52,478 bases of DNA, from the NCBI GenBank assembly GCA_030750465.1, contig JASMHZ010000005.1, positions 1 to 52,478 on the forward strand, given 5' to 3'. A program made the translations under genes and the position numbers. The notes under the pieces were generated by a model. The model made no database searches, was not told the origin of the DNA, and worked only from the letters and a program-made list of their open reading frames with translations. This DNA comes from Candidatus Peribacteraceae bacterium (lineage in GTDB: Bacteria; Patescibacteriota; Gracilibacteria; Peribacterales; Peribacteraceae). Shown here in pieces: positions 7,900 through 50,295 of the stretch (position 1 is the first letter of the stretch; every line of letters starts with the position of its first letter).

Positions 7900-8018
7900 A
7901 AGCAAAAGAAACAGAAGAGTCAGAGGAAGCAGAAGAAGCAGAGGGCTATATCAAAACAGAATCAGAAGATTTACTCTTCTGGTTCTTCTGTTTCTTCTGA
8001 TTCCTCTGCTTCCTCTCA
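7900..8018. repeat. polypurine/polypyrimidine inverted repeat (copy 1)
   Basis: The left arm has units such as GAAACAGAAGAGTCAGAGG and GAAGCAGAAG, and the right arm TTCTTCTGATTCCTCTGCTTCC. The centre is AT-rich. It lies between dnaG and rpoD on the same strand. Six further copies of the family occur in the window. Confidence 0.75.
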
Positions 8019-15550: not shown

Positions 15551-15648
15551 CAAAGAAACAGAAGAATCAGGGGAAACAGAGGTTTCAGAGGATTTATCGT
15601 TATTACTCTTCTGGTTCTTCTGGTTCCTATGTTTCTTCTGCTTCTTTC
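15551..15648. repeat. polypurine/polypyrimidine inverted repeat (copy 2)
   Basis: The left arm is AAAGAAACAGAAGAATCAGG-like and the right arm CTTCTGGTTCCTATGTTTCTTCTGCTTC-like, with a TTATCGTTATTA centre. It lies between divergent genes, so termination alone does not explain it. Confidence 0.7.
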
Positions 15649-23373: not shown

Positions 23374-23534
23374 ATTATCGGATAATTATACCACAAAAGC
23401 CGTTTCGTCTCTTTCTGTAAGAAGTGACAAATGTCCTGCTTTTTATTATCAAGAATTATTGTCCAGTAAAGTTATCATGAAACTTGCATTTGATACACAT
23501 AATCATAGACAATGATCCTGACCCACCTCTTCTC

Positions 23535-23870
23535 ATGACTAAATTTATATCTAAAACACTTATAGGGACATATTTTTTCCTTGCCTCAACCTCCAGCGCA
23601 ATCGCTCTCGATTTGGGTGAACCTGGAATTGGAGGCTCAACTGATTTACGCCAGACAATAATTAAGCTTGTAAAAGAAGTTCTTCTCTTTATGGCGCTTA
23701 TCGCAGTCGTAGTAATTGTAATTGCAGGCGTGCGCCTTGTGGTCTCGCAAGGCGAACAGGAGCAAATAGAAAAATCCAAGAAAACAATTATCTATGCGAT
23801 CATTGGGCTGATCGTTATTTTGCTTGCTACGGCAATAGTTAAGTTTGTTGAAATGGCATTGGGACTCTAG
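23535..23870 (+). CDS. TrbC/VirB2-like mini-pilin (paralogue 1)
   Basis: 111 residues. A signal peptide-like start (TKFISKTLIGTYFFLASTSSAIA) is followed by a short exposed part and two hydrophobic helices around a basic/Ser turn: LFMALIAVVVIVIAGVRLVVSQGEQEQ and KKTIIYAIIGLIVILLATAIVKF. This is the layout of CPR T4SS-pilin-like proteins (PF18895-like). Paralogues lie at 25161 and 25535, but this copy is separated from them by an M24 peptidase on the other strand. The start is the ATG after LL at 23535; upstream codons look like spacer. Confidence 0.7.
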   Translation: MTKFISKTLIGTYFFLASTSSAIALDLGEPGIGGSTDLRQTIIKLVKEVLLFMALIAVVVIVIAGVRLVVSQGEQEQIEKSKKTIIYAIIGLIVILLATAIVKFVEMALGL

Positions 23871-25105: not shown

Positions 25106-25160
25106 AAATCGGTTTAATGGAACTAGTTAAAATGGATTTATTGTGATAGAATATGTTGAA

Positions 25161-25532
25161 ATGAGTCTAATTCTTCGTCCTTGGCAAACCGCCACTTTAA
25201 CAGCTTCGTTTTGGCTTATTAAGGCCGGAAGCGCTTTGGCTCAAGTCTATTCTGGAGGAGGAGTAAAAGCAGGAGTAAGTGCAGCCTCTGGCACAGGAGT
25301 TAGCGATGTTAGTTTAAAGTCGTTAATCGGAAATATTGTTGATCAGGCATTGCTGTTTGTCTCATTGCTTGCAGTAACTGTAATCATTATTGCAGGCTTT
25401 TATCTAATTCTTGGAATGGGATCAGATAGTTCACGCGAAACAGCGAAGAAGATTATTATTTATGTCTCAGTTGGCCTACTGGTAATTATTCTCTCCAAAC
25501 TATTCGTCAACCTTATTAAATCCCTTGTCTAA
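25161..25532 (+). CDS. TrbC/VirB2-like mini-pilin (paralogue 2)
   Basis: 123 residues. An N-terminal hydrophobic region ends in GSALAQ, a likely signal-peptidase site. A Gly/Ser-rich linker follows, then two helices (LFVSLLAVTVIIIAGFYLILGMGSD and AKKIIIYVSVGLLVIILSKLFV) with the turn DSSRETAKK. It matches paralogue 3 closely in the turn (GMGSD-x-SRE-x-KK). The start MSLILRP is supported by TAGAAT (25147-25152), 8 nt upstream. It is the first gene of a three-gene run. Confidence 0.72.
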   Translation: MSLILRPWQTATLTASFWLIKAGSALAQVYSGGGVKAGVSAASGTGVSDVSLKSLIGNIVDQALLFVSLLAVTVIIIAGFYLILGMGSDSSRETAKKIIIYVSVGLLVIILSKLFVNLIKSLV

Positions 25533-25534
25533 TC

Positions 25535-25963
25535 ATGACAGCAAAAAATCTAAAACAAAAATTTACAAAAGCATTACTTCTAGCTTTTGTTTGCACAGGA
25601 GTAATTTGCATATTGCCTGTACAGTCAGTTGTTGATGTGGCTTTCGATAATCTAATTCCTATTGCTTATGCAGATGCCCTCGGAGATGCATCTGAAATTG
25701 GCGGCATAGACGACTACGGCGGGGGTGACGGAGATACGGTGCGCGACAAAATTCGCGATATAGTTCAGCAAGTTCTTTTATTCGTAGCCCTAGCGGCAAC
25801 AGTTGTCATTGTTATAGCTGGAATAATTTTAATTGTGGGAATGGGTAGCGATGAATCTCGCGAAAAAACAAAGAAGATAATTCTATATGCGATCATAGGA
25901 ATAATCGTGATAGCAATTGCGGAAGCTTTTGTTATATTAGTTACAACAGCTGTTGATAAATAA
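25535..25963 (+). CDS. TrbC/VirB2-like mini-pilin (paralogue 3)
   Basis: 142 residues. It has a long signal region (LLLAFVCTGVICILPV... AYADA), a Gly/Asp-rich spacer (DDYGGGDGD), then the two-helix pilin core LFVALAATVVIVIAGIILIVGMGSDESREKTKKIILYAIIG. It starts 2 nt after the stop of paralogue 2 and is followed 7 nt later by the PKD/proline-rich protein. The three genes are surely one transcript and probably one machine. Confidence 0.72.
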   Translation: MTAKNLKQKFTKALLLAFVCTGVICILPVQSVVDVAFDNLIPIAYADALGDASEIGGIDDYGGGDGDTVRDKIRDIVQQVLLFVALAATVVIVIAGIILIVGMGSDESREKTKKIILYAIIGIIVIAIAEAFVILVTTAVDK

Positions 25964-38659: not shown

Positions 38660-38786
38660 TCCTAGGAACAGGATTCCTGTGAGTATGCTTACCGGAAGTC
38701 GTCTTTTGATGCTTATGTATAATGTGGGTATTTGGGTATTATTATAACATAATATTGATGTTTTTGGAAGATGTTGTATGAATTAA

Positions 38787-38889
38787 AAGAAGCAGAAGAA
38801 TCAGAAGATTCAGAGGATTTTATTAAATCAAAATTTCAGATAAGCATTCCTCTGTTTCCTCTGCTTCCTCTGTTTCCTCTGCTTCCTTA
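38787..38889. repeat. polypurine/polypyrimidine inverted repeat (copy 3)
   Basis: Left arm AAGCAGAAGAATCAGAAGATTCAGAGG, right arm CCTCTGTTTCCTCTGCTTCCTCTG repeated. It lies between the divergent PrsW-like and glyS genes. Confidence 0.75.
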
Positions 38890-40589: not shown

Positions 40590-41306
40590 ATGCCTATTCC
40601 AACCGAAAAAGAACTATTCGCGGCCAACTGCCACATCGGCCACAGAAAAGAAAAGTGGAATCCTCGTATCAAACCATATCTATACGGCTCACAACGCGGG
40701 ATTTATATCTTTGACCTTGTGAAAACAAAAGAGCATCTAGAAAAAGTAGTTGCCGAAGTTAAGAAGCTCTACAGCGAAGGCAAGACCATACTCTTTGTTT
40801 CTACAAAACAACAATCAATTGCTCCCGTAGAAGCTATCGGACAATCACTAAATCAACCTGTTGTAACCAAGAAGTGGATACCGGGACTTTTGACTAACTG
40901 GTCCACAATCAAAAGAAGAATTAAATATTATCTGGATCTGCAACAGTCATTCCAAACAGGAGAGATTGAAAAGTATAAGAAGAAGGAACAGCTGATGCAA
41001 AGAAAGAAATTAGCCAAGCTTGATACTGCACTTTCTGGCGTTGCAGATATGACCGAGTTGCCTGATGCAATTTTTGTTATCGATGCAGTGCGTGATAACG
41101 TCGCCGTTCGCGAGGCTCACAAAAAAGGAATCCCTCTTTATGGAATTTGCGACACGAATGCAAATCCCGATGACTTTACAGAGTTCATTCCTGCTAACGA
41201 TGATGCTGTGACTTCCCTTAACGCAATTCTGGACACGCTTGAATCGGAACTTAAAGGAGCATCAACTAAGTCCAAGAAGAAAAAAGAAGAAGTATTAGCA
41301 GCCTAA
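40590..41306 (+). CDS. rpsB: ribosomal protein uS2
   Basis: 238 residues. GHRKEKWNPRIKPYLYGSQRGIYIFDLVKT, FVSTKQQS, WIPGLLTNWSTIK, and DAIFVIDAVRDNVAVREAHKKGIP match uS2. A Lys-rich C-terminal tail follows. It is part of the 30S head. The standard rpsB-tsf pair is kept. The start is the only Met in place. A TACGTC box is 8 nt before the ATG, but that lies in a tandem-word region, so the promoter is uncertain. Confidence 0.95.
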   Translation: MPIPTEKELFAANCHIGHRKEKWNPRIKPYLYGSQRGIYIFDLVKTKEHLEKVVAEVKKLYSEGKTILFVSTKQQSIAPVEAIGQSLNQPVVTKKWIPGLLTNWSTIKRRIKYYLDLQQSFQTGEIEKYKKKEQLMQRKKLAKLDTALSGVADMTELPDAIFVIDAVRDNVAVREAHKKGIPLYGICDTNANPDDFTEFIPANDDAVTSLNAILDTLESELKGASTKSKKKKEEVLAA

Positions 41307-43793: not shown

Positions 43794-44180
43794 ATGAAAG
43801 TTGCAAATATCCTCATTGCTGAAGATGATTCGGTCCTTCGTGAAGTATATTCAAAGAAGTTCACAATATCGGGATACAATATAAGAGCGGTTGAAAACGG
43901 CGCAGAAGCAATAAAAGAGGCAATGGAAGTAGCACCTGACATAATGATTATCGATCTGAATATGCCTGTAGTTGATGGATTTGCGGTGTTGGAAAAGTTT
44001 CCTAAGGAAAAGAGGAAATTTCCGATTATAGTTCTAACCAACTTTGGAAATGAGGAAAATCGCGATAGAGCTTTGAAACTGGGCGCTAACGAGTATTTTA
44101 TCAAAAACGAGATGACTATCAGGTCGCTTTTGGAGATGGTGGAAAATTTGCTTAAGGCCAAAGAAATGTGGGATAAATAA
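43794..44180 (+). CDS. receiver-only response regulator
   Basis: 128 residues, CheY-like. ILIAEDDSVLREVYSKKF gives the acidic pair. IMIIDLNMPVVDGFAVL carries the phospho-acceptor Asp. IVLTNFG has the Thr, and YFIKNE the conserved Lys. No output domain. The histidine kinase is not seen. TTGTAC (43759-43764)-N16-TAGAGT (43781-43786) with 7 nt to the ATG supports the start at 43794 rather than the GTG at 43785. It lies just upstream of the second TraD-like ATPase. Confidence 0.88.
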   Translation: MKVANILIAEDDSVLREVYSKKFTISGYNIRAVENGAEAIKEAMEVAPDIMIIDLNMPVVDGFAVLEKFPKEKRKFPIIVLTNFGNEENRDRALKLGANEYFIKNEMTIRSLLEMVENLLKAKEMWDK

Positions 44181-44295
44181 AGGAAACAGAAGAGTTAGAA
44201 GAAACAGAAGAGTCAGAGGATCTTATTAGCATCCGGATCATTGACAAATATTTCAGCCTATCCTCTGCTTCCTCTGTTTCCTCTGTTTCCTCTTC
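44180..44295. repeat. polypurine/polypyrimidine inverted repeat (copy 4)
   Basis: Left arm GGAAACAGAAGAGTTAGAAG and GAAACAGAAGAGTCAGAGG, right arm CCTCTGCTTCCTCTGTTTCCTC. It begins at the response regulator stop and ends about 45 nt before the next promoter. Confidence 0.75.
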
Positions 44296-44353
44296 TACAC
44301 TAAATAATCTATCCATAATAGCAATTTAATGCTAATATAGTATGATACCTCTA

Positions 44354-46834
44354 ATGAATCTACTTCCTGTTATTATCGTTTTGGTCCTACTGGCAGGAGC
44401 TCTGCATATAGCTCTCTGGCTGTCTCGCTTATGGCACGAAAAACGCATGGAGCGAGATCTGGTTTTTCTTCAATTACTAACTCCGAAAAAGGAGAGCAAA
44501 GAGGATAAAGAAGTAGAATCTGAGCAATTCTCTACAGGAAAAGATTTCAAAGAAGTACTAGGTGTGATGGAGCATCTGTTTGAGGCTCTGCATGGAATTT
44601 ATCTGACCAGAATAGAAAGATTTTGGAGGGGCCAACCATTTTTCTCGGTTGAGTATGCAGCACTGGCAGGAGAGATTTTGCTTTACGTAGTTGCTCCAAG
44701 AAAATTCGCACCACTAATAGAAAAACAAATAACCGCATTCTATCCGGACACGATTATAGATGTTGTCGAAGATTACAACATTTTTACAGAGAAATCTGTT
44801 GTATCAGTCCAACCACTTGTACCCAAAAAGAAGTTCACTTCTGTATTCAGAACTTATCAACAACTAAAAAGTGACCCGTTCAATAACATTACGAATGCAT
44901 TTTCGAAACTTAAAACGGCCGAGGGTGCCGCAGTACAAATTGTACTTAAACCTATAAAATCCGGTTGGCAGAAAAACCTCCAAAAAGAAGCAACTCAGTT
45001 AATCAATCCAAAGAAGCAACACGCAAAATGGTGGAATCCAATTTCTTGGGCTAGTGCCGCCTTTAGTATAATTACAGGAGGAGATGATCTTGCCGAATTT
45101 AAGGAAGCCGAACATTCGACCGGAGAACGCGTATCACAAATGGTAGAGGAATACAGCAAATCCATGGACGAGAAGGCCGGACAGGCCGGATTTACATGTA
45201 CCCTCAGGCTTCTTGTATCTACTGATTCTGAAACAAGATCAAAAACTATTCTGGAAACTCTTATCGCTGCTTTCAGACAATTTGATTCTGTCCGGGGTAA
45301 CAATTTTAAAAGACCAAGGATAGTTCAAACTACCGAGATAGTTAATAAATTCATACGCAGGTCTCCCAAACGCACCAAGAAACAATTTTTCATGAGCCCA
45401 AAGATGCTTTTGGGAACGAGTGAACTTACCGGCTTTTTTCATCTTCCAAATATCAAATATAACAAAGTCGAAACCATTAAGTGGCAGAACTTCAAAATTG
45501 CACCTGCACCAAAAGATATTCCGGAAGAAGGATTGTTCCTTGGGAACAATACGCACCGCGGAGAAAAGACCAAGATTTTCCAGAACAATGAAGACCGCTT
45601 CCGTCACTTCTACATCATAGGACAAACCGGTACAGGTAAATCATCCATTATGCAGCTGATGGCTCGTCAGGACTTTCATGATGGAAAAGGCCTCTGCGTG
45701 GTTGATCCTCATGGTTCGCTTGTAGAAGACCTAATGCCATATATTCCACGCGAAAGAGCTGATGATGTAATTTACTTCAACCCAGCTGATGTCGAACGGC
45801 CTATGGGACTGAACCTATTGGAAGGCAATTCTCCGGAAGAAAGAGATCTGATAGCTTTGGATGCTATGAACATGATGGTAAAGATGTTTGGAAACGAGAT
45901 CTTCGGTCCTAGAATTCAGGACTACTTCCGTAATGGATGTCTTACTTTGATGGAAGATGAAGAGGAAGGTGGAGCTATAACTGATCTTGTTAAGCTGTTT
46001 ACAGACGAAGAGTGGCAAAAATACAAAGTATCAAAAGTATCAAATCCGATTGTTAAATCATTCTGGGAAAAACAGATGGCACAGACTGGACAAAGGGAAA
46101 AGCAAGAGATGATCCCCTACTTCGCCGCTAAGTTCGGACAGTTCTACACCAATTCGTTGATCAGAAATATTGTGGGGCAAACAAAGAGCGCCTTTGATAT
46201 TGCCGATTGCATGAATTCGGGAAAGATCCTGCTTGTGAACTTAAGTAAAGGGCTTGTTGGAGACATTAACTCCCAGTTGCTTGGAATGATATTTGTTAAC
46301 AAAATCCAGGTTGCAGCTATGCGCAGACAGCAACAAAGCAAAGAGGAGCGAAAAGACTTCTTCCTGTACATCGACGAATTCCAAAACTTTGTAACTGATT
46401 CAATAGAATCAATTCTTTCCGAAGCCAGAAAATATCGACTTGGCTTAGTACTTGCTCACCAGTACATCGATCAATTGGAGAAGGATGACAAGATGTCGGG
46501 TAAGACGAGCCTTAAGGGAGCAATTTTTGGAAACGTTGGAACGATGATGTTTTATAAGATTGGACCGCAGGATGCAGAAGTATGTGCGAAGGAAATGGCG
46601 CCTGTATTTTCTGAGCAGGACTTGGTTAATATGGATGCCTTCAAAGGCTCGATGAAGCTTTGTATAGAAGGAAAACCCTCCAGACCATTCTCCATTGATG
46701 TGCCCCGCCCATGGCTCGATACCACCTACCCGAAAGACCCTCAGGCAGCCGAGGCATTCAAGCAGCTCAGCAGGCTCACTTATGGTAGACAGAAAGACTT
46801 TGTTGATCGTGAGATTTTGAGGAGAATTGGATAA
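44354..46834 (+). CDS. TraD/VirD4-like conjugative-type ATPase (paralogue 2)
   Basis: 826 residues from the ATG at 44354. One N-terminal membrane helix (LLPVIIVLVLLAGALHIALWL), then a CPR-type N-domain, Walker A GQTGTGKSS (about 423-431), PHGSLVED, FNPADVERPMGLNLLE, RNGCLTLMEDEEEGG and Walker B FLYIDEFQNF. It is collinear with the 18-20.7 kb paralogue but has one membrane helix instead of two, so the two may have different partners. The start is chosen because TATGAT (44341-44346) ends 7 nt upstream, and the ATG at 44342 lies inside that box. It is followed by small anchored proteins. Confidence 0.75.
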   Translation: MNLLPVIIVLVLLAGALHIALWLSRLWHEKRMERDLVFLQLLTPKKESKEDKEVESEQFSTGKDFKEVLGVMEHLFEALHGIYLTRIERFWRGQPFFSVEYAALAGEILLYVVAPRKFAPLIEKQITAFYPDTIIDVVEDYNIFTEKSVVSVQPLVPKKKFTSVFRTYQQLKSDPFNNITNAFSKLKTAEGAAVQIVLKPIKSGWQKNLQKEATQLINPKKQHAKWWNPISWASAAFSIITGGDDLAEFKEAEHSTGERVSQMVEEYSKSMDEKAGQAGFTCTLRLLVSTDSETRSKTILETLIAAFRQFDSVRGNNFKRPRIVQTTEIVNKFIRRSPKRTKKQFFMSPKMLLGTSELTGFFHLPNIKYNKVETIKWQNFKIAPAPKDIPEEGLFLGNNTHRGEKTKIFQNNEDRFRHFYIIGQTGTGKSSIMQLMARQDFHDGKGLCVVDPHGSLVEDLMPYIPRERADDVIYFNPADVERPMGLNLLEGNSPEERDLIALDAMNMMVKMFGNEIFGPRIQDYFRNGCLTLMEDEEEGGAITDLVKLFTDEEWQKYKVSKVSNPIVKSFWEKQMAQTGQREKQEMIPYFAAKFGQFYTNSLIRNIVGQTKSAFDIADCMNSGKILLVNLSKGLVGDINSQLLGMIFVNKIQVAAMRRQQQSKEERKDFFLYIDEFQNFVTDSIESILSEARKYRLGLVLAHQYIDQLEKDDKMSGKTSLKGAIFGNVGTMMFYKIGPQDAEVCAKEMAPVFSEQDLVNMDAFKGSMKLCIEGKPSRPFSIDVPRPWLDTTYPKDPQAAEAFKQLSRLTYGRQKDFVDREILRRIG

Positions 46835-46960
46835 AAAGAGGAAACAGAAGATGCAGAAGAAGCAGAAGATTCAGAGGAGTGGATGTAAACAAACTTGTGG
46901 AAAGTTATATTTGAATATCTTCTGATTCCTCTGATTCCTCTGTTTCTTCTGCTTCCTTTG
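46835..46960. repeat. polypurine/polypyrimidine inverted repeat (copy 5)
   Basis: Left arm GGAAACAGAAGATGCAGAAGAAGCAGAAG, right arm CTTCTGATTCCTCTGATTCCTC. It starts at the ATPase stop and ends 15 nt before the promoter of the first small anchored protein. Confidence 0.75.
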
Positions 46961-46974
46961 CCAGTATACGCATA

Positions 46975-47003
46975 TTGTCCTCCGATCCATTACATGCTAT
47001 AAT
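46975..47003 (+). promoter_or_regulatory. promoter of small anchored protein A
   Basis: TTGTCC (46975-46980), 17-nt spacer, TATAAT (46998-47003). The leader is about 17 nt and has no Shine-Dalgarno sequence. Confidence 0.6.
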
Positions 47004-47026: not shown

Positions 47027-47410
47027 ATGAAACACAGAATTCATACAAAAGGCTTAAGTCTCGGGATAGTTACAGGAATTGCAGTGGGAGCTCTCTCTGT
47101 AGTCGGATCCATTAATTCTTCGACTACTGCTTTTGTTGGAATCGATCCAAATTTCGCGCGCACTGGTGATCCGATAAACCAAAATATTGATATTAATGAT
47201 GAGAATCACAAAAAGAGGGATTTAATTAAGGGTTGGCCTCGTATTCAAGATAGGTTGCAGGAGCAAGGAAGCTACTACTGGAGAAATGGCAGAGGCAAAA
47301 ACAGTATTCCAAAACACTGCTGGGAACTAAGCCATGCCAGCCTTGCAAAATGCGTTGTGGAAGCAAGAGAGGGAAATATATATCGGAAACAGCAAACTCC
47401 AAGAAACTAA
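47027..47410 (+). CDS. small anchored two-cysteine protein A
   Basis: 127 residues. A membrane or signal segment (about 9-30: GLSLGIVTGIAVGALSVVGS) with a small-residue GxxxG-type pattern. AFVGIDPNF follows, then a charged middle part. Two Cys near the C-terminus are 10 residues apart (C-WELSHASLAK-C). I recognise no family. Three paralogues follow. Likely exported and membrane-tethered, with the cysteine pair outside, possibly forming a disulfide. Confidence 0.55.
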   Translation: MKHRIHTKGLSLGIVTGIAVGALSVVGSINSSTTAFVGIDPNFARTGDPINQNIDINDENHKKRDLIKGWPRIQDRLQEQGSYYWRNGRGKNSIPKHCWELSHASLAKCVVEAREGNIYRKQQTPRN

Positions 47411-47435
47411 AACCAATCATCTAACAAACTTTATC

Positions 47436-47783
47436 ATGTTCTTCAATCAGCAAACCAAAGTCGCTCTCCTGGCTGGAGTCGTGGTAGGAGTCGTAGTAGG
47501 AGCAGCGGCAGTAAAAACGGGCTCAACATCAGCATTTATGGGCACAAGACCAGATGAAGCTATTAAAATGGACTCACTCAAATGGATAGATGAGGAAAAT
47601 CCAAAGTACAAACCTGCTGCAATGAAACCACGAGATAACTTTGTTGAGCTTCAACCTTCCTCAATTTGGTTTGGACCAGCAAGATGCAGACAATTTCATC
47701 TTGGACCTAGATATACGAAATGCTTGCTTAGAGATCAACAAGTGGGGCCTACAAAGCTTCCTTATCCAGATAAGAGCCGATAA
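47436..47783 (+). CDS. small anchored two-cysteine protein B
   Basis: 115 residues from the ATG at 47436. The hydrophobic start LLAGVVVGVVVGAAAV is followed by AFMGTRPDEA, equivalent to AFVGIDPNF of A. The C-terminal cysteine pair is C-RQFHLGPRYTK-C (11 between), with RY-x-KC as in C. It lies 25 nt after A without its own promoter, so A and B are one transcript. The longer frame to 47334 overlaps A and is not used. Confidence 0.55.
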   Translation: MFFNQQTKVALLAGVVVGVVVGAAAVKTGSTSAFMGTRPDEAIKMDSLKWIDEENPKYKPAAMKPRDNFVELQPSSIWFGPARCRQFHLGPRYTKCLLRDQQVGPTKLPYPDKSR

Positions 47784-47904
47784 AGAGGAAACAGACGAAA
47801 CAGAGGAAGCAGAAGAGGCAGAAGAGGCAGAGGACTACGTTAAGTTGTTATCTGACATCATCTCTTCTGTTTCCTCTGATTCTTCTGATTCTTCTGTTTC
47901 TTTT
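47783..47904. repeat. polypurine/polypyrimidine inverted repeat (copy 6)
   Basis: Left arm AGAGGAAACAGACGAAACAGAGG with GAAGCAGAAGAGGCAGAAGAGG, right arm CTCTTCTGTTTCCTCTGATTC. It begins at the stop of B and ends just before the promoter of C. Confidence 0.75.
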
Positions 47905-47919
47905 ACCATTTTTAGCATA

Positions 47920-47948
47920 TTGTCTTCAATATCGTTTTGTGCTATATT
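47920..47948 (+). promoter_or_regulatory. promoter of small anchored protein C
   Basis: TTGTCT (47920-47925), 17-nt spacer, TATATT (47943-47948). The spacer ends in TTTTGTGC, like the TACATGC of promoter A. The leader is about 30 nt without a ribosome site. Confidence 0.6.
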
Positions 47949-47985
47949 ATAAATAACAAACATTTACTTCCTAACTGTCCCAGTC

Positions 47986-48387
47986 ATGAACTGCAAGAAC
48001 AAGCATAATGTCGTTGTAGCATCGCTAGTCGGTGTCATCATTGGTGCTCTTATCGGCGCCAGTACTATGCAGTACGCACAGCTAATCGCATTCAAGGGCG
48101 CAAATCCTAACTTCATGAAGAATTCTGTTAATGTACGTGCAGCAGACGGAATCGTTCGCGAGCGTAGCGACGCAGGCGTATTCCAAGTACCTGGCAAAGA
48201 AATTTCTGAGAGAGAAGCAAGGCTCAGGAGAGCAGAAAATGCCGGACACAGCGCTCCTCTCAATTTAGAAGATGAGAGTAAGGGCTGTAATCGGTTTGCT
48301 TTCGGCAGCGCTCGATATGCCAAATGCACAGTCGAAAAGCGCGAAAACGACATCGACTATCAGCAGTGGCCAAGTGTGCCTCATTAA
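47986..48387 (+). CDS. small anchored two-cysteine protein C
   Basis: 133 residues. NVVVASLVGVIIGALIGAST is the membrane segment, with the GxxxG pattern of D (GIVVGTLMGAGT). AFKGANPNF follows. The cysteine pair is C-NRFAFGSARYAK-C (12 between), with RYAKC close to RYTKC of B. The middle part is Arg/Glu-rich. It shares with D the leader words CAAA-ATTTA-TTCCT and the word QYA after the anchor, so C and D look like a recent duplication. Confidence 0.55.
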   Translation: MNCKNKHNVVVASLVGVIIGALIGASTMQYAQLIAFKGANPNFMKNSVNVRAADGIVRERSDAGVFQVPGKEISEREARLRRAENAGHSAPLNLEDESKGCNRFAFGSARYAKCTVEKRENDIDYQQWPSVPH

Positions 48388-48465
48388 GAAGAACCAGAAG
48401 AACCAGATGAGTTAGAGGAACCAGAGGATAATCCTCTGATTCCTCTGTTTCTCCTATTTCTTTTG
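48388..48465. repeat. polypurine/polypyrimidine inverted repeat (copy 7)
   Basis: Left arm GAAGAACCAGAAGAACCAGATG and AGAGGAACCAGAGG, right arm CCTCTGATTCCTCTGTTTCTCC. The arms nearly touch, making a compact stem-loop between C and D. Confidence 0.75.
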
Positions 48466-48478
48466 TATATACATATAT

Positions 48479-48507
48479 TTGCTTTTTTGCGTATATTATG
48501 TTATAGT
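48479..48507 (+). promoter_or_regulatory. promoter of small anchored protein D
   Basis: TTGCTT (48479-48484), 17-nt spacer, TATAGT (48502-48507). The leader is about 33 nt. Confidence 0.55.
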
Positions 48508-48547
48508 ATAACCAATACAAATATTTAATTCCTTCCTCCAAACAGTA

Positions 48548-48916
48548 ATGAAATACAACAGTAATGTTTCAATCGCTGTGCTCGCAGGCATCGTTGTCGG
48601 TACCCTTATGGGCGCCGGTACAAGCCAGTACGCATATGTTGTCGCCAGCAGCTATCATCCTAATGATGCAAAAGCTGGTGCAGTGGAATCTTACCACGCT
48701 GCTCCTAGTGGAGCCACAAGGTACTCCAACACACGTGCACTTCGCTTGAACCTCGACGAAGGTCTTAATGACGGGGCATTTCTTTACAGAAATCCCGATG
48801 TCACTGGACGCGAACGACCTGCCTTCGACGAGTCTAAGTACTCAGAAGTACGTGGTTGCGTTGGCACAAGCGGCAAACGCCGAGCAAGCTGCGAATCGGG
48901 TAATTATGTAAATTAA
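48548..48916 (+). CDS. small anchored two-cysteine protein D
   Basis: 122 residues. SIAVLAGIVVGTLMGAGTSQYAYVVA is the membrane segment. HPNDA replaces the PNF motif. The cysteine pair is C-VGTSGKRRAS-C (10 between), less conserved than in B and C. A terminator follows. No family recognised. Confidence 0.55.
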   Translation: MKYNSNVSIAVLAGIVVGTLMGAGTSQYAYVVASSYHPNDAKAGAVESYHAAPSGATRYSNTRALRLNLDEGLNDGAFLYRNPDVTGRERPAFDESKYSEVRGCVGTSGKRRASCESGNYVN

Positions 48917-48950
48917 TCCCGTGCTTAAGCACTAGCGAATAGACGTCAAT

Positions 48951-48984
48951 AAAAACCTTACGAGTCCAAACTCGTAAGGTTTTT
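48951..48984. terminator. perfect 15-bp bidirectional terminator
   Basis: AAAAACCTTACGAGT (48951-48965), CCAA loop, ACTCGTAAGGTTTTT (48970-48984). A-run and T-run flank the stem, so it works on both strands. It ends the two-cysteine gene group and probably the SLH-sortase gene too. Confidence 0.85.
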
Positions 48985-49088
48985 AACAATCAACACGTCC
49001 GCCTACGGCGAACTGTCAACAATCAACTATTACTAAATATGTTGATTGTCGATTGTTGAGAGGTGCCGAAGGCACCGTGTAGATTGTT
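48983..49088. repeat. GTTGATTGTCGATTG-word inverted repeat with inner palindrome
   Basis: AACAATCAACACGTC at left pairs with GTTGATTGTCGATTGTTG and the end. It encloses the palindrome GGTGCC-GAA-GGCACC. It is like the element at 23871-24008. Confidence 0.6.
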
Positions 49089-50295
49089 ATCTCAAGGCAA
49101 CCGAGCTCACCGGCAATGCATGAATCAGATATCTCTGTGCAATCGAATCTCTGGGCCAACAGGTATATAAAATCAGCTCCTCTCCTCCTCCCTGATCTTG
49201 GAATGGTGTTGTATCGCTAGCCTGAATTGTCTGGTGCCTTGTTACTTCGTATGTGTGTAGCTTTCCGTCATAAGTCACAAATATTCTCGATCCAACTTCC
49301 AAGGTATTTACCGTTCTGAAGATTTTGGTGAACTTGGAAACATCCCAAGGGTAGCTGGAAGAATGCCCGTATATCATAATTTTGCCTCCTGCTCCCGGAT
49401 AACTAAACAGATGACCAAGTCCATGCTGAAGAGGCTGAAGTATACCATCAGGCGTAAAAGGATCGGCCGGATGAGTTACTGTCAGATCTTTAATTCCAAG
49501 AGTAGGAATAGAGACCGCAAAATGCTTCTCGGAAGAATGCTCGGGCAAGGCGGCTATCGAAGACTGGCCCGCAGATATTACTCGAACCTGAGGATTAACT
49601 CTTTGTGGAGCATTGATTCTCTGCTGAGGAGAAATAGGCCCCTGAGGTTCAGAACCGGAATAAGCGATGGCTTCTTCGGCCTGGATTTTATCTAAACGAT
49701 AAACCAAGTCGAAAAATCTTCCACGAGTAATAACTTGTCCAAGCTCCATTCTTCCCTGATGCATAATCAGATTCTTTGCAATTGCATCATTAATATATGG
49801 AGTGAACCACTCACCGTCGCGATTCTGCGCATAAGGAGAAAGCTGCGCACCTCCAGTTACACCCTCAAGCCCGTACGCTCGAAGAGCCATCACAACTGCT
49901 TCCTCAAATTTTAAATTATTGGCAGGCCTGAATGTTCTGTCTGGATAACCTGTGAGTATGTTTGATTCAAATCCTGCTTCAACATAAGGCGTATACCACT
50001 CACCTGATGGAACATCGTAGAATAGTGGAAGTGGCATTACATTCTGTTTGTACCAATCCACTCGATCGGGAACTTTTAATCCTGCAATTACCTTCAAAGC
50101 CTCGGCCCTGTTAAGAGCACTATTAGGCTTTCCCTCTCCTGTTGCATAACCTTGAATAACTCCCTTCGATCTTAGGTATGTAAATGCCGTGTCATAAGGA
50201 GTACCGACTGTATCCGAAAATCCGGCGGCATATGCAATGTGCGCAAATCCCAAAATCGCGAAAAGGCCAGCAAATAGTTGAATCTTTCTATACAT
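49087..50295 (-). CDS. SLH-domain sortase fusion
   Basis: 402 residues. A signal peptide (IQLFAGLFAILGFAHIAYA) is followed by three SLH modules (about 22-195: FSDTVGTPYDTAFTYLRSKGVIQGYATGEGKPNSALNRAEALKVI; FYDVPSGEWYTPYVEAGFESNILTGYPDRTFRPANNLKFEEAVV; DGEWFTPYINDAIAKNLI). A linker then leads to a sortase barrel (about 250-400): IMIYGHSSSYPWD (catalytic H311), LYTCWP (C379) and Arg388 in AQRYLIH. Sortases link proteins with sorting signals to the envelope; SLH modules usually bind wall polymers. A fusion would put the enzyme on the S-layer. TAAAAT lies 13 nt before the ATG. Confidence 0.85.
   Translation of the reverse strand: MYRKIQLFAGLFAILGFAHIAYAAGFSDTVGTPYDTAFTYLRSKGVIQGYATGEGKPNSALNRAEALKVIAGLKVPDRVDWYKQNVMPLPLFYDVPSGEWYTPYVEAGFESNILTGYPDRTFRPANNLKFEEAVVMALRAYGLEGVTGGAQLSPYAQNRDGEWFTPYINDAIAKNLIMHQGRMELGQVITRGRFFDLVYRLDKIQAEEAIAYSGSEPQGPISPQQRINAPQRVNPQVRVISAGQSSIAALPEHSSEKHFAVSIPTLGIKDLTVTHPADPFTPDGILQPLQHGLGHLFSYPGAGGKIMIYGHSSSYPWDVSKFTKIFRTVNTLEVGSRIFVTYDGKLHTYEVTRHQTIQASDTTPFQDQGGGEELILYTCWPRDSIAQRYLIHALPVSSVALR

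Follow-up and report, generated by a model that had tools for sequence, protein, structure and literature searches.

CPR bacteria live by cell contact, and their surface proteins are mostly unnamed. One contig of a Candidatus Peribacteraceae draft genome (1.0 Mb, 64 contigs) carries four tandem genes for small proteins, here called A to D, between the genes for a TraD-like ATPase and an SLH-sortase. What are these proteins, and does their location say what they do? An earlier note on this DNA suggested that they form a diversified set of surface proteins, possibly stabilized by disulfides, and that they could be substrates of the nearby export or sorting enzymes. We analyzed the stretch of 52,478 nucleotides that contains the genes (hereafter, the window) together with related genomes. 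We hold with moderate confidence that A–D are abundant, disulfide-stapled, membrane-anchored small bitopic surface proteins, and that they belong to a family specific to Peribacteraceae.

Four small genes with a common plan

Gene A (47027..47410, on the forward strand like the other three) encodes a protein of 127 residues with a basic N-terminus, a glycine-zipper transmembrane (TM) helix, the motif AFVGIDPN and a cysteine pair, C98-x10-C109. The product of gene B (47436..47783; 115 residues) has AFMGTRPD and C84-x11-C96, with RYTKC at the second cysteine. Gene C (47986..48387; 133 residues) combines AFKGANPN, an HSAP box and C101-x12-C114, with RYAKC. Gene D (48548..48916; 122 residues) is the most divergent of the four; it has HPNDA, a HAAP box and C104-x10-C115 in the form C.G.S..RR..C. 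All the descriptive details of the earlier note were found again: the coordinates and the lengths of 115–133 residues, an N-terminal membrane segment with GxxxG spacing (one such hydrophobic helix in each protein), AF-x-G-x-x-P(N/D) in A, B and C with HPNDA in D, a C-terminal cysteine pair with 10–12 residues between, RY-(T/A)-KC in B and C, and strongly different middle regions, which correspond to a linker without conserved sequence.

The modules that hold the cysteine pairs lie on the forward strand at 47318..47353 in A, 47685..47723 in B, 48286..48327 in C and 48857..48892 in D. The module of C is predicted to form a helix-turn-helix (pLDDT about 75). That of D reads CVGTSGKRRASC, and this form of the pair recurs in other genera (CPGTSTVRRSRC, CEGQSPVRRSQC).

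Compared with the nearest relative (locus L074), dN/dS is 0.048 for A, 0.127 for B, 0.179 for C and 0.14 for D. Values of 0.05 to 0.18 indicate that A–D are protein-coding and under purifying selection. Among the small genes, dN/dS ranges from 0.05 to 0.25, against 0.03 for the neighboring TraD; on these sequence comparisons, purifying selection on A–D is relaxed relative to the TraD-like ATPase. No sign of positive selection appears in dN/dS at the level of whole genes. The idea of a diversified set holds for the strongly different middle regions, with the qualification that A–D are old paralogues (see below) under relaxed purifying selection.

A family found in Peribacteraceae

Searching with a profile built from A–D gave clusters in each of the four other genomes of the genus and weaker matches across Candidatus Peribacteraceae. 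With neighboring loci and an iterative search added, 65 members were collected. A class-wide search of 353 genomes matched 36 Peribacteraceae genomes and gave one marginal match outside, confined to the TM; in a phylum-wide sample of 380 genomes, matches again fell in Peribacteraceae only, plus one marginal match. Neither search returned a confident homologue in other families of the class (353 genomes) or phylum (380 sampled). A profile of longer paralogues matched 27 of 74 Peribacteraceae genomes, and the union of the A–D-type and long-paralogue lists places homologues in about 43 of these 74 CPR genomes. The profile search of CPR genomes that the earlier note proposed thus returned a family; a complete lack of homologues was what the note had named as a refutation. 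About 40% of Peribacteraceae genomes have no detectable member; either these bacteria can do without the function or their copies have diverged past recognition.

Sequence searches of Pfam, NCBIfam, PHROGs, PADLOC and the PDB gave weak, scattered matches, none of them convincing, in agreement with the earlier failure to recognize a family. A–D were unmatched in PADLOC, and their PHROGs matches were weak and centered on the TM. Isolated sub-threshold matches joined a few members to the Pfam glycine-zipper domains (PF13441, PF13488) and to DUF2613 (PF11021), which have a hydrophobic helix with GxxxG spacing as in the A–D family; for B this similarity was limited to the TM region, and any one family matched at most two of 40 members. 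Foldseek with the model of C gave a best E of 6.6, which is not meaningful.

At 40% identity the 65 members fall into 23 single-linkage clusters. Counterparts from other genomes of the genus cluster with each of A, B, C and D; beyond the nearest relative, the groupings of A and C have moderate support. This grouping points to old paralogues that have kept their order and are older than the species, and recent tandem duplication or gene conversion was rejected on the same grounds. By its TraD locus, the window is closest to Candidatus Peribacter sp. UBA2144, at 98% identity; MAGs of Candidatus Peribacteraceae, also CPR, make up the rest of its near relatives. One related locus, on JAIPIN010000023.1, is deposited as a Kiritimatiellales bacterium; its gene content and 83% TraD identity are Peribacter-like, and it is apparently mislabeled.

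A glycine-zipper anchor and its predicted topology

Members share an architecture of short N-terminus, glycine-zipper TM, variable linker, H/R-(S/G)-A-A-P box and C-terminal C-x(6–14)-R-x3-C helical hairpin. GxxxG occurs in the TM of 94% of members and in 11% of 54 control N-terminal helices; for the longer register GxxxGxxx[GAS], the figures are 83% and 0%. Only one of the 65 members has a second hydrophobic segment. Lysine and arginine average 1.38 before the TM and 0.45 in the 15 residues after it, and the balance favors the N-terminal side in 75% of members and the C-terminal side in 5%. By the positive-inside rule, this asymmetry is consistent with an N-in/C-out topology. From these sequence features we infer that the N-terminus of such proteins is cytoplasmic and the rest is exported; the charge bias and the single N-terminal TM both support the earlier reading of A–D as exported and membrane-anchored.

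Many members carry a juxtamembrane A-F-x-G-x2-P-N motif after the TM. The linker that follows has low AF2 confidence, is probably disordered and is not conserved in sequence. An [H/R]-x-A-A-P-like box occurs in 40 of 64 members, against 4.3 in shuffled sequences, for a pattern that was chosen after inspection. It lies at a median of 13 residues before the cysteine pair, and 47–54 residues before it in the D lineage. Longer paralogues (about 164–246 residues) have an inserted second domain with its own cysteine pair. In two members this second domain is present without the C-terminal one, which indicates that the parts are modular.

Paired cysteines and a predicted C-terminal hairpin

The number of cysteines after the TM is two in 44 members, four in 20 and zero in one, and never odd (n = 65). 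The extra cysteines of the longer members are paired too. Control proteins that are encoded at these loci and lack an N-terminal TM divide into 475 with odd and 439 with even counts, and exported-like controls lean toward even counts (28 even versus 16 odd). Of 65 homologues, 62 retain the C-terminal pair and 59 have C-x(6–14)-R-x3-C at the C-terminus; the chance of such a pair in a random 45-residue tail is about 1.2% at the cysteine frequency of neighboring genes. Since the members spread over 23 clusters, the evenness of their cysteine counts is not one inherited accident, although the clusters are nonetheless related. The sole cysteine-free member (L138:15281-15613) has lost both C-terminal cysteines together; it retains the TM and a tyrosine-containing tail.

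AF2 models were obtained for two divergent members, C of the window (35 sequences; pLDDT 55.5; helices 6–36, 100–103 and 109–121; C101/C114) and a member from locus L085 (29 sequences; pLDDT 62; C99/C110). Both begin with an N-terminal helix and end in a helix-turn-helix (pLDDT 75–79) that has one cysteine on either side of the turn; the stretch in between is of low confidence. The structure prediction that the earlier note called for thus places the pair within one C-terminal helix-turn-helix, but in models of low overall confidence (pLDDT 55–62, pTM 0.24–0.27). Given even counts in 65 of 65 members and the joint conservation and joint loss of the pair, a disulfide between the C-terminal cysteines is very probable, and the earlier wording, "possibly disulfide-stabilized", can be strengthened to that extent.

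In favor of a disulfide, the window's genome encodes two DsbA-like CxxC proteins, extracytoplasmic and anchored, with the motifs CPFC and CPAC. On the other side, VKOR was not found in this genome, and it exceeds the cut-off in only 8 of 74 Peribacteraceae genomes. One disulfide-formation protein and cysteine-rich exported proteins have been reported for Peribacteria (PMC4736985). The latter, in Ca. Peribacter riflensis, are large (1,655 residues on average, 7% cysteine) and mostly carry a signal peptide, and cysteine-dependent rigidity or attachment was proposed for them (PMC4736985). The A–D family resembles them in lineage and export; unlike them, its members have about 100–246 residues and two or four post-TM cysteines.

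Promoters and leaders

Gene A, and B with it, has a promoter at 46975..47003 (TTGTCC-N17-TATAAT); B, which starts 25 nt after A, has no convincing promoter of its own. The promoters of C (47920..47948, TTGTCT-N17-TATATT) and D (48479..48507, TTGCTT-N17-TATAGT), likewise on the forward strand, follow the same TTG-N17-TATA plan, as had been claimed for A, C and D. The leaders of C (37 nt) and D (40 nt) have no Shine-Dalgarno sequence, and that of C is pyrimidine-rich before the ATG. An intrinsic terminator follows D (48950..48985, forward strand), a perfect 16-bp hairpin with a T run at its end.

These signals are shared by the wider family. Its promoters are alike across genera and chromosomal locations, and a Shine-Dalgarno-like sequence is present in none of 48 members. 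The leader is at least 70% pyrimidine in 73% of these 48, against 24% of controls; among relatives, the same leader type is found for 86% of rpsB, 93% of tsf and 4% of response-regulator genes. Mean pyrimidine fractions are 0.77 for the family, 0.80 and 0.81 for rpsB and tsf, 0.47 for the response regulator and 0.55 for a general control. The pyrimidine tract persists in front of promoterless members inside several operons. The Peribacteraceae rpsB and tsf genes (at 40590 and 41373 in the window) have pyrimidine-rich leaders across 37–41 genomes, nearly all without a Shine-Dalgarno sequence. A pyrimidine-rich leader may be a translation signal that highly expressed genes share across the lineage. 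Strong promoters combined with leaders like those of rpsB and tsf suggest high expression and translation of the family, whose products would then be abundant.

A candidate set of envelope proteins

We propose that the N-terminus, which is short and usually basic, remains cytoplasmic, and that the glycine-zipper helix crosses the membrane and may pack on its own copies or on a partner. The exported part would be a flexible, variable linker with a small helical hairpin at its C-terminal end, held closed by one probable disulfide. With a few lineages kept in parallel, each cell would carry a set of different anchored tips. Such tips most likely have a structural or adhesive role in the envelope, in contact with other cells, phages or the outside, although no adhesive or structural domain is recognizable in the family and the helix could instead be a cleaved signal peptide. 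Peribacteraceae thereby gain a defined, searchable family, with glycine-zipper anchor, variable linker, AAP box and cysteine hairpin. In metaproteomes, its members offer specific candidates for abundant proteins of the envelope, and they allow a direct test of disulfide formation in Peribacteraceae envelopes.

Type IV (class III signal) pilins resemble the A–D family in that their N-terminal helix is hydrophobic and their C-terminal region contains a disulfide. Unlike type IV pilins, the family shows no GFTLIE-type prepilin-peptidase motif, has a glycine zipper in its helix and is predicted to have no beta-rich head.

One could envision a more specific scenario, in which highly expressed stapled proteins with interchangeable linkers form a host-contact or phage-exposed coat, and the cysteine-closed tip is possibly released at the H/R-x-AAP box. 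We regard this scenario as rather doubtful. Weighing the evidence on each side, we rank four further explanations below the reading of A–D as abundant surface proteins.

The proteins may instead be precursors. In that case, a cut in the TM helix or at the H/R-x-AAP box would release a disulfide-closed peptide of about 30–45 residues that acts as a signal, is bacteriocin-like or is directed at a host. The over-representation of the box and its usual position just before the cysteine pair are compatible with this, as is a conserved C-terminal module behind a probably disordered linker. However, the TM keeps its glycine register much more strictly than a signal peptide would require, the box of the D lineage lies far from the pair, and the AAP pattern was picked with the data already in view. 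We saw no dedicated gene for a protease, a transporter or immunity traveling with the family, and we consider a precursor role unlikely.

Alternatively, A–D could be bitopic envelope regulators that bind a partner through the glycine zipper and sense redox state through the cysteine pair. Such a function would suit small proteins with one TM, whose packing face is conserved, and with a thiol pair outside the membrane. In the window's genome, moreover, a glutaredoxin-domain membrane protein is encoded beside a four-cysteine paralogue, and ORFs matching it in size lie near that paralogue in genomes G001–G004 and G015. Yet no membrane partner is conserved across the different loci, and regulators of this kind seldom have several paralogues or expression signals this high; we accordingly give this reading little credence.

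The TraD–sortase neighborhood as a cargo slot

Two further explanations draw on the location of the genes. Pfam matches of both flanks confirm that A–D lie between a VirD4/TraD-like ATPase (44342..46834, forward strand; PF10412 6.7e-11, PF02534 4.5e-10) and an SLH-sortase (49087..50295, reverse strand; PF00395 2.2e-16, PF04203 1.4e-15), which served as synteny anchors and are outside the family. TraD proteins of other genera are 76–84% identical to the window's copy. In the synteny comparison that the earlier note suggested, the adjacency itself held, with the SLH-sortase after TraD in 55 of 66 Peribacteria loci, but small genes (1–4 copies) occupy only 13 of these 55, and 14 of the 66 overall. 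The other 42 sortase-adjacent loci have none, and in 17 of them the gap is at most 200 bp. Family members also occur at several other chromosomal locations, for example beside PurP-like genes. Adjacency without the family, other cargo in the same place and the family elsewhere together mean that the shared location says little about shared function. The TraD–sortase neighborhood is a cargo slot, and functional evidence drawn from it is weak; coupling to TraD or the sortase was rejected as a primary reading because the content of the slot is variable. Conserved adjacency alone, as this case illustrates, should not be equated with function.

By analogy with VirB2-like arrays, A–D may be accessory or pilin-like parts of a CPR type IV secretion apparatus that act with the VirD4/TraD-like ATPase, and in 15 loci, the window included, a VirD4-type ATPase gene does lie upstream of the family. 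We find this improbable. VirB2-like pilins have two TM helices; the A–D family has one TM and a cysteine hairpin. Neither TrbC (PF04956) nor T4SS_pilin (PF18895) matches A–D or any of 40 members. Matches do exist for three further ORFs of the window, VirB2-like T4SS_pilin (PF18895) genes at 23484-23870, 25143-25532 and 25535-25963, among 12 matches in the window's genome, and separate true T4SS_pilin genes were present in 20 of 20 relatives searched. Moreover, 52 of 66 TraD loci are without the family, and some members are in loci without TraD. VirB2/TrbC-like arrays of Patescibacteria are, like A–D, tandem sets of small, divergent membrane proteins in CPR, variable and sometimes near T4SS genes (PMC12102498); they are the nearest analogue of A–D in organization, not in family.

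That A–D are substrates of the neighboring SLH-sortase, a possibility raised in the earlier note, and are attached to the wall is most improbable: despite their place between TraD and sortase in 13 collected loci, LPxT[GAN] occurs in 0 of 65 members, the C-termini are polar and have no membrane anchor segment, 42 TraD–sortase loci do without the family, and many members lie away from the slot.

Several other observations concern these loci. In other genomes the slot is occupied by unrelated genes: Y1_Tnp/RAYT-like transposases lie between TraD and sortase at L087:12648-13277, L090:4421-4981 and L109:12502-13068, called by Pfam in L087 (below the cut-off) and L109 and by resemblance only in L090. 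In L107, L118, L119 and L137, the gene downstream of TraD encodes a different exported-looking protein of about 185–225 residues with four C-terminal cysteines; the two of these that were tested had no Pfam match. Two tandem PurP-like (DUF1246/DUF1297) genes at L049:4914-7182 lie near a long four-cysteine paralogue, and likewise in L041. Within the window, the pilin gene at 25535-25963 directly precedes a gene for a PKD-domain protein.

Rfam matches in the region were set aside, as they join long hairpins to microRNA models far below the gathering score. GA-rich intergenic repeats were likewise rejected as part of the A–D system; they occur genome-wide and are abundant in two of the five genomes of the genus. 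In the window, these dispersed inverted repeats lie at 7905-8015, 15552-15647, 38786-38888, 44180-44292, 46838-46958, 47785-47903 and 48388-48465. Each is built of tandem nonamers (GARGAANCA), with a purine arm, a short spacer and the reverse complement. The pattern has 42 matches in the window, against 0.17 expected, and 113/111 genome-wide. Its abundance in the window's genome and in G003, and near absence from the other three genomes of the genus, probably reflect a recent expansion.
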